This document shows, in pieces, positions 26,966-33,546 of a stretch of DNA of 64,000 nt. The stretch is from Armatimonadota bacterium (lineage in GTDB: Bacteria > Armatimonadota > HRBIN16). The position numbers and the translations under genes are program-made. Position 1 is the first letter of the stretch. Each line of letters begins with the position of its first letter. The notes under the pieces are model-generated. The model was given only the letters and a program-made list of their open reading frames with translations. It was not told the origin of the DNA and did not search any database. The stretch covers positions 248,001 through 312,000 of the forward strand of contig BPGU01000002.1 in assembly GCA_026003195.1 (NCBI GenBank), in the 5' to 3' direction.

Positions 26966-27853
26966 GTGAGGCTGACCTCGCCATCGCAGATACGTCTGGT
27001 GCTGTTGCAGTTTGGGCTGACCCCTGACAAACGCAAGGGGCAGCACTTTCTGGGCGACCACAACATTCTGGAGAAAATCCTGCAAGCCGCCGACCTCGCA
27101 CCTGATGAGGGCGCAATGGAAATCGGCAGCGGCATCGGCACGCTCACCCGTGCGCTGGCGGAACGCGCCAAACAGGTGCTCACCTTTGAGGTGGACGCCA
27201 AACTCATTCCCGTCATCCAGCACAACCTGCAGGGTTTCGGCAACGTGCGCCTGATACACGGCGACTTCCTGCGCCAGAACCTGCCAGAACTCATCCGCGA
27301 GACCTTTGGTGACAGCCCGTTCAAAGTAGTGGCAAACATTCCCTACGGCATCACCAGCACTATCTTAGACCGCCTGTTCGGCGTTGCCAGCGGCTGGACG
27401 CGAGCGGTGCTGATGATTCAACGCGAAGTCGCCGAACGCCTGATTGCCCAGCCGGGCACATCGGAATACAGCGCGATCAGCGTCTTCGCCCAGTACCATT
27501 CGTCCGTCGAAATCGTGCAACGGGTATCGCATACTGTATTTTATCCCCCTCCAGAGGTGGACAGCGCGATAGTGCGTTTCACCCCCTTGCCCAGGCGACT
27601 CCCGCCGGACGAGGAAAAAAAGCTCTTCCGCGTGGTGCGTGCCGCTTTTGGTCAGCGGCGCAAAACGCTGCTCAACGCCCTCAGCGGTGGATTGGGGTTG
27701 CCGCGCGAACAGGTGCAAAGCGTGCTGCAAGAGACCGGCATAGCCCCCCAGCGACGCGGTGAAACCCTTTCGCTGGAAGAGTTTATCGTGCTGTCGCAAA
27801 GGCTGTTGGGCGATGCCAGAACAACACGGGAGCAGGTGTTCCCGGAAGGATAG
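26966..27853 (+). CDS. rsmA: 16S rRNA (adenine1518/1519-N6) dimethyltransferase
   Basis: RsmA (KsgA) dimethylates two adjacent adenines in helix 45 of 16S rRNA during 30S assembly. The 295-residue protein has KGQHFLGD near the N-terminus, the SAM motif EIGSGIGTLTRALA, and the catalytic NIPYGI (variant of NLPY). I chose GTG 26966, 5 bases after GGAGGGG, because the longer frame from 26909 begins inside the terminator. The C-terminal helical domain is complete. It stands alone on its transcript or is read at low level from upstream. Confidence 0.95.
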   Translation: MRLTSPSQIRLVLLQFGLTPDKRKGQHFLGDHNILEKILQAADLAPDEGAMEIGSGIGTLTRALAERAKQVLTFEVDAKLIPVIQHNLQGFGNVRLIHGDFLRQNLPELIRETFGDSPFKVVANIPYGITSTILDRLFGVASGWTRAVLMIQREVAERLIAQPGTSEYSAISVFAQYHSSVEIVQRVSHTVFYPPPEVDSAIVRFTPLPRRLPPDEEKKLFRVVRAAFGQRRKTLLNALSGGLGLPREQVQSVLQETGIAPQRRGETLSLEEFIVLSQRLLGDARTTREQVFPEG

Positions 27854-27917
27854 CCTGCCTTGCGTTACGAAACAGACTTTGTACGACCCGGAGACAAACC
27901 CTACACGGAGGAGTCGG

Positions 27918-28974
27918 ATGAACGATTTACACCTGCTGAACCTGGGATTGGGTAGCCTTCCGCTGTTGTCTCAGGCAGAGACACGCTCCATCTCCGCCGA
28001 GAACCCAAACGGTGAGCGAGGAGGAGGCGCCAAAGCGGAACCCGATGAACACAGTGCCGCTTCGATGCTGGGCAAGGGCTGGAAGGTGCGTCCCTGCATC
28101 ACGCTGGAACCCGGAACCACCACCACTCTGGCAGATATCCAGGGACCGGGTATCATCCAGCACATCTGGATCACCGTCGACGTGAAGGCGTATCGCGATA
28201 CGATACTGCGCATGTACTGGGATGACGAAAGCACACCATCAGTAGAAGTGCCCCTGGGAGACTTTTTCTGCAACGGGCATGGACTGCGTTACAACGTGGT
28301 GTCGCTGCCGATAGCAGTCAATCCCTCCGGTGGTTTCAACTGCTACCTGCCCATGCCTTTCCGTAAGCGAGCGAGGATCACCATCGAGAACCAGCACTGG
28401 GAACCCATTCACGGCTTCTTTTACCAGATTACGTATGCCCTCACCGACATTCCCGAAAACGCCGCTTACCTGCATGCGCAGTGGCGACGTTCCATGACCT
28501 CGCGCGAATGCCCGGAACATGTGCTCCTGGATGGTGTGAAGGGACAGGGGCATTATGTGGGCACTTTCTTGGCATGGACACAGCTCTCCAACGGCTGGTG
28601 GGGCGAAGGTGAAATCAAGTTCTACATGGACGGCGATACCGAGTATCCCACTATCTGCGGAACAGGCACAGAAGACTACTTCTGTGGGGCATGGTGTTTT
28701 GGTGAAACCTTCAACGCGCCTTTCACGGGCTATCCCCTGTGGCGCAAGGAACCCGGCGAGGTACCCCCGACACGGTTTGTACCGCTGGCATATCTACGAC
28801 CCTATCCGCTTCAAGCAGAGCCTGAAGGTCACCATTCAAGCGCTGGGGTGGTGGCCCAACGGCAAGTTCCAGCCACTCACCGATGACATCGCTTCGGTGG
28901 CATACTGGTATCAGGCGGAACCGCACGCGCCCTTCCCCACCCTGCCCCCGATTCACGAGCGGTGGTCCAGGTAA
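27918..28974 (+). pseudogene. DUF2961 family protein with a single-base frameshift
   Basis: ATG 27918 follows GGAGG. The first 280 or so codons encode a typical DUF2961 protein (GPGIIQHIWITV, CYLPMPFRKRARI, GTGTEDYFCGAW). After the C5 run at 28764-28768 the frame leaves the family; with one C fewer it continues as LYRWHIYDPIRF, LKVTIQALGWWPNG, and HAPFPTLPP to TAA 28972-28974, giving about 351 residues, the usual size. DUF2961 includes glycoside hydrolase-like (GH172) proteins. Either the gene is recently inactivated or the C run is a sequencing or assembly error. Without correction the frame ends at 28886. Confidence 0.85.
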
Positions 28975-32943: not shown

Positions 32944-33354
32944 ATGTTCGGACTGTTCGGACGGCGACAGGCGTCTGACCACGCAGAAAGCGGTTTGATT
33001 CGGCACGTCAATGCCAGCAACTTCAAGCAAGAGGTGCTGGAGTCAGACATTCCGGTGCTGGTGGATTTCTGGGCACCATGGTGTGGACCCTGCCGCATGC
33101 TCGCTCCTATTCTGGAAGAGATAGCCCGCGAGTATCAGGGCAGGCTGAAGGTGGTGAAGCTGAACACCGATGAGAACCCGATTACCGCCAACGCTTACGG
33201 CATTCAGGGTATCCCGACGCTCATCCTGTTCACGCGAGGCTTTGCCCGCGAGCGTTTGGTGGGGCTGATGCCCAAGCAGCACATCCTGGCGAAGATACTG
33301 CCGTATCTGCCAGCAGAGGCACCTGCAACGGTATCCCACTCAGAAAGCGTATAG
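32944..33354 (+). CDS. trxA: Thioredoxin
   Basis: This 136-residue thioredoxin has the classical active site [10 protein letters not shown] near residue 46 and the cis-proline segment [11 protein letters not shown]. It carries about 22 extra residues at the N-terminus and a short Ala/Ser-rich tail. No signal peptide is visible, so it is cytoplasmic. The stop codon TAG forms part of the ribosome site (AGGAGGG) of the following small gene, so the two are translated from one message and their products may be partners. Confidence 0.93.
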
Positions 33355-33366
33355 GAGGGACTAATC

Positions 33367-33546
33367 ATGCCGTTCAAAGCCGTTCTGGCGGTCGTCGGCG
33401 GGGCAGTGGTGGGACTGGTTCTGTCCGCACTGTCCCGCAAGATGGGCAGCACTTGAGGTATTCTGTGCAACCCTGTCATTGCAGCCATTTACGGTGCAGT
33501 GATCGGGTTGCTGCTGGTTTTCGGGCAAAACCAGCCTTCCAGGTAG
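33367..33546 (+). CDS. Probable selenoprotein of DUF6132 type, TGA at residue 30 read as selenocysteine
   Basis: ATG 33367 follows AGGAGGGACTAATC. The first 29 codons encode a hydrophobic stretch ending KMGST; TGA is at 33454-33456; the same frame then runs 29 more codons (GILCNPVIAAIYGAVIGLLL, then VFGQNQPSR) to TAG 33544-33546. The two halves together match small DUF6132-type proteins, with two membrane-like helices around a SGxC-I-T-S-NP-like loop and a YGA-x-x-G helix. In relatives the TGA position is cysteine (recalled from the family, not searched). This gives a UxxxC pair. The gene is coupled to thioredoxin, a plausible redox partner. Alternatives are a nonsense mutation or sequence error; selA, selB, selC and selD are not in the window. 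Confidence 0.65.
33463..33484 (+). promoter_or_regulatory. SECIS-like hairpin after the in-frame TGA
   Basis: Starting 6 bases after the TGA, CTG-TG-CAA pairs with TTG-CAG around the loop CCCTGTCA, giving six base pairs with a two-base TG bulge on the 5' side; a shorter TGCAA/TTGCA pairing is an alternative. The loop G-T lies 18-20 bases after TGA, close to the spacing in E. coli fdhF. Bacterial SECIS elements are variable, so this is only supporting evidence. Confidence 0.35.

Follow-up and report, generated by a model that had tools for sequence, protein, structure and literature searches.

The known prokaryotic selenoproteins, with which the protein described here appears to share the decoding of UGA through selA, selB, selC and selD, the existence of Cys homologues, a hairpin after the UGA and a redox neighbourhood, were sorted in a 2026 inventory into 119 families and subfamilies (PMC13188914 Table 1). 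Among the selenoproteins listed there are the YeeE/YedE transporter (PF04143, GUxSG), the mercuric transport protein (PF02411) and KCU-star/DUF466 (PMC13188914), which are likewise membrane and/or very small selenoproteins but belong to other Pfam families, have other Sec motifs and show no Pfam cross-match. The inventory contains neither DUF6132 nor any two-helix membrane protein with a U-x-x-x-C-N-P loop (PMC13188914), and the selenoprotein family considered here, which is missing from it, is an addition to it. DUF6132 (PF19628), a family of Cys forms, resembles the protein of this locus in its length, in its two hydrophobic glycine-rich helices and in its loop GxC-x-x-x-[SCA]-NP, whereas here Sec stands for the loop Cys and, in many cases, a further Cys (UxxxC) takes the place of Ser or Ala as the second loop residue. 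No literature on DUF6132 itself was found, most subscription papers and RefSeq annotations lying outside the search, and a prior annotation is possible; among NCBIfam models none matches well.

The gene, which is predicted to encode a DUF6132-related two-helix membrane selenoprotein, occupies positions 33367 to 33546 on the forward strand of the window, the whole 64-kb stretch of DNA that was analysed. It begins with ATG at 33367, contains a lone in-frame TGA at 33454-33456 (forward strand) and ends with TAG at 33544-33546, giving the 59 codons with a single TGA at codon 30 that the first-pass annotation had described. Read through, it yields the 59-residue product MPFKAVLAVVGGAVVGLVLSALSRKMGSTUGILCNPVIAAIYGAVIGLLLVFGQNQPSR, for which an AlphaFold2 model (pLDDT 72) shows one helix at 3-25 and another at 36-53, the Sec being placed in the short loop GST-U-GILC-NP between them, in agreement with the two hydrophobic helices that had been proposed to flank it. 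Positive charge is about equal at the N-terminus, in the loop and at the C-terminus, and charge counts leave the membrane orientation unsettled. Directly upstream on the same strand (32944 to 33354) lies a gene for a thioredoxin of 136 amino acids with a WCGPC active site, an identity already assigned to it and borne out by PF00085 (107.9 bits). From the thioredoxin stop to the start of the selenoprotein gene there are 12 nt, and the ribosome-binding site AGGAGG (33353 to 33358, forward strand) does overlap the thioredoxin stop TAG (33352-33354), as had been noticed; this arrangement points to translational coupling, and the two genes are likely co-transcribed. No RNA families or tRNAs were found within the window, and plasmids searched by tblastn with the 59-residue protein gave no match. 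Elsewhere in the window, a DUF2961-like gene (27759-28974) shows an apparent frameshift near 28800, its C-terminal part continuing in the overlapping frame 28555-28974.

The source genome (4.58 Mb, estimated 100% complete) contains all four genes on which decoding of UGA as Sec depends, and the proposal that selA, selB, selC and selD should be sought in it thus had a positive outcome. Its tRNA-Sec scores 72.9 bits, above the Rfam cut-off, and has the anticodon tca according to ARAGORN; SelB scores 416, SelA 599 and SelD 379.5 bits. The selD gene itself (L013, C1:183661-184587) has one in-frame TGA, which falls in the catalytic motif GUASK, and SelD is a second selenoprotein of this genome.

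In order to follow the TGA through the phylum, 291 Armatimonadota genomes were searched. The single protein as query matched 24 of them, and an alignment query found the family in 63, of which 50 have exactly one TGA and 13 have no stop. The TGA lies at the aligned site in all 43 of the 50 TGA genomes that were read out, and within the window's genus it is at codon 30 in each of the nine genomes carrying the gene, the window's own included. This recurrence is far beyond chance and rejects a random nonsense mutation, which had been judged unlikely from the one sequence. A sequencing error, which a resequenced Cys codon would have revealed, is likewise excluded, because the same codon is TGA in many separately assembled genomes. 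Cys homologues, which had been expected, were found in 11 loci with a Cys codon at the Sec site (L025, L027, L038, L062, L063, L067, L078, L104, L105, L107 and L109), for example with the loops EGQC-IVLCNP (L025), GSQC-MLMCNP (L027) and GGGC-PLTCNP (L038, L062). Downstream of the site, the NP and glycine positions are conserved among family members. Sec is the only chalcogen residue common to all Sec forms; the second Cys varies, being arranged as UxxxC in the window protein and as UxxC in family f16, and Cys34 is missing from several subtypes, some of which carry a Cys ahead of Sec instead.

The distribution of tRNA-Sec, found above the cut-off in 154 of the 291 genomes, follows that of the TGA. 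It was detected in 49 of the 50 TGA genomes versus one of the 13 Cys genomes (Fisher p = 6e-11, a value that is uncorrected for relatedness and, because the genomes are related, indicative only). The TGA genome without a match (G185) is 77% complete, and the Cys genome with tRNA-Sec is G192. Within a single genus, g127, one genome (G231) combines TGA with tRNA-Sec, and the two with Cys (G230, G232) gave no match for tRNA-Sec. One member of the window's genus (G179) has tRNA-Sec and no detected copy of the gene.

Comparison of the nine genus members gave a mean dN/dS of 0.169 upstream of the TGA and 0.085 downstream, and among the 27 downstream codons there are 19 variable third positions, 9 variable first positions and no variable second position. 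The half downstream of the TGA is therefore under strong purifying selection, acting at the level of the protein. After the TGA the first-pass annotation had also noted a hairpin; it is present, and it is larger than had been claimed, the putative SECIS extending from 33465 to 33514 on the forward strand as a long, imperfect stem that starts 8 nt downstream of the UGA (MFE -28.6 over the 60 nt that follow the TGA). Compared with 1000 synonymous recodings the window hairpin is more stable (z = -3.1, p = 0.005), and the same test gave p <= 0.032 for 8 of the 9 genus members; covariation within the genus is weak, with two pairs changed on both sides. The bSECIS model asks for an apical loop 16-37 nt after the UGA, a loop size of 3-9 nt and an MFE of at most -7.5, and further for a G among the first two nucleotides of the loop (PMC13188914). 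Spacing (30 nt), loop size (6 nt) and MFE of the window hairpin all fall within these limits, and its apical loop AUUUAC (33487-33492) is without the required G, the strict bSECIS filter finding no match in the window or in most of the genus. In family f16 the hairpin CCGGCGGUGCCGG has the textbook bSECIS form, with a GGU loop 20 nt past the UGA. The selenoprotein family as a whole offers two hairpin designs for one and the same insertion event, one with a long stem and the other with a short stem and a GGU loop. Cys forms fold at this place too, some of them into stable hairpins, and Sec forms are more stable over 57 nt only (p = 0.02); as the two do not differ in hairpin strength over 39 and 48 nt, the hairpin by itself is weak evidence.

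A separate observation concerns f16 and its near relatives (L071-L075, L080-L082, L086), in which Sec is followed by PAVPV (PVVPV in L081), a peptide whose coding sequence is CCGGCGGTGCCGGT or differs from it slightly. Given this shared coding sequence, what keeps PAVPV conserved may be the SECIS hairpin and not the protein.

The assignment to a DUF6132 type had been made by way of the motif SGxC-x-I/L-T-x-NP, and this motif does match a true member of the family, L107 (SGTCPITSNP). Taken alone, the window protein scores only 16.8 bits against DUF6132 (E = 0.0054), below the gathering cut-off of 23.2, so that in this direct form the assignment fails; it holds by way of intermediates and a profile-profile match, on which membership rests because the single sequence scores below the cut-off. 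Of 24 family members, ten give DUF6132 matches with E <= 0.01, the best of them 1.3e-7, and three planctomycete members lie above the cut-off (L105, 59.1 bits; L109, 43.1 bits; L107, 36.9 bits). When the Armatimonadota set was compared by hhalign with these three, the probability was 98.4 and the E value 5.7e-15, and in the profile-profile alignment U30 falls on the Cys of GxCPLTxNP. By these comparisons the window protein is placed, as a remote relative, in the wider DUF6132 group.

Beyond Armatimonadota, the search used a degenerate pattern spanning an in-frame TGA, and 8 of its 12 matches were due to chance. TGA-form members were found in Candidatus Coatesbacteria (L091) and in Planctomycetota (L098), and both genomes have tRNA-Sec with the anticodon tca. 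Among 392 planctomycete genomes searched, seven relatives were found; the site is TGA in two of them, Cys in four and TAA in one. The last (L106/L117, G331 C256:3475-3624) has TAA at the same codon in an otherwise intact frame, followed by a strong hairpin (z = -4.6 over 57 nt). Recoding of UAA as Sec is unsupported there, the tRNA-Sec of this genome being an ordinary one with anticodon tca, and the TAA copy therefore probably reflects either a recent loss or a mistake of assembly.

Could the TGA nevertheless be an ordinary stop, leaving a 29-residue peptide and, behind it, a relic or a separate frame? The planctomycete TAA copy, which its tRNA-Sec (tca) could not read, would agree with this, but a downstream dN/dS of 0.085 with no second-position change across nine species, the conservation of the NP and glycine positions past the TGA, the Cys found at the site in relatives and the strong co-occurrence with tRNA-Sec make it very improbable indeed. 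Reading of the TGA as some other amino acid, for example Trp, by a code change or by general read-through, would leave an identical open frame in any one genome. However, relatives have Cys and never Trp at the aligned position, TGA serves as the terminal stop in many relatives of the gene, and the genome has a dedicated tRNA-Sec together with Sec genes. Code reassignment is accordingly rejected, and we assign any such reading a negligible probability. From these comparisons of sequences we estimate at about 97% the probability that the gene encodes a real selenoprotein with Sec at codon 30, the UGA being, in relatives, either kept as TGA or swapped for a Cys codon.

Gene order and gene fusion show a link of this protein with thioredoxin. 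A thioredoxin gene lies 8-15 nt upstream in all nine genus genomes carrying the gene and is also directly upstream in G228 and G229 and downstream in G191, and in G192 thioredoxin adjoins the gene and is followed by a thioredoxin reductase-like frame. In six genomes from two phyla, four of Armatimonadota (G213-G216) and two of Planctomycetota (L104, L109), a Cys form and thioredoxin form one continuous frame; the L109 fusion scores for both domains (DUF6132, 43 bits; thioredoxin, 91 bits). Many members are without a thioredoxin neighbour, including nearly all of family f16, and therefore the thioredoxin partnership may not be general. Neighbours in other lineages include OsmC, an FmdB-type zinc ribbon, ClpB, Cpn10, MarR and an AcrB-type pump. 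The chaperone neighbours, namely ClpB (L059, L064), Cpn10 (L059) and GroEL/GroES-like frames (L117), may hint at a role in stress.

The same features bear on what a real selenoprotein of this form would do. Instead of taking part in redox exchange with thioredoxin, it might bind or move chalcogen or metal species such as selenide, sulfide or polysulfide across the membrane, with Sec as the binding or relay site. The Cys of YeeE/YedE-type carriers is believed to have such a role. A carrier would be in keeping with the two helices rich in glycine, with Sec being the sole invariant chalcogen residue while the second Cys is unconserved, and with the match of some members to glycine-zipper models. 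Moreover, selenoprotein forms exist for YeeE/YedE and mercuric transport proteins (PMC13188914). However, the thioredoxin fusions and gene pairs in several lineages fit a redox partner better, and the scanned neighbours contain no sulfurtransferase and, except for one AcrB-type efflux pump (L030), no transporter, so that we regard a carrier as unlikely.

On the comparative evidence, tRNA-Sec and SelB read the UGA of codon 30 as Sec, probably directed by the hairpin that starts 8 nt downstream. According to the mechanism that we favour, the product would most likely be a helical hairpin acting as a membrane-bound selenol/thiol redox protein, in which Sec might attack an oxidised membrane substrate (a disulfide, a peroxide or a polysulfide) and thioredoxin would reset the oxidised Sec. 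Cys34 is a possible resolving thiol in the window's subtype; since the resolving Cys varies between subtypes, this thiol may come from thioredoxin itself. In outline, we believe this thioredoxin-linked redox mechanism to be probably right.

Standard gene callers would truncate the selenoprotein at codon 30. The family is found as a selenoprotein in about one sixth of the Armatimonadota genomes searched and in at least two other phyla. A domain of unknown function thereby gains a testable role, that of a membrane loop which bears a conserved chalcogen and is linked through gene fusion with thioredoxin, and the Sec versions, Cys versions and one TAA version of a protein of 50-70 residues form a natural series useful for studies of Sec/Cys exchange.

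Electron exchange between cytoplasmic thioredoxin and thiols in the membrane is familiar from DsbD/CcdA-type conduits, which have six or more helices. The exchange proposed for the selenoprotein is of the same kind, although here there are two helices and one Sec, and no sequence link with DsbD/CcdA is shown. A more far-reaching and quite unlikely version of the redox mechanism would make the protein a minimal two-helix selenol relay, an oligomer through which cytoplasmic thioredoxin would supply electrons to acceptors across the membrane. If true, it would be a much smaller counterpart of DsbD/CcdA, with selenium doing the work of several cysteines.
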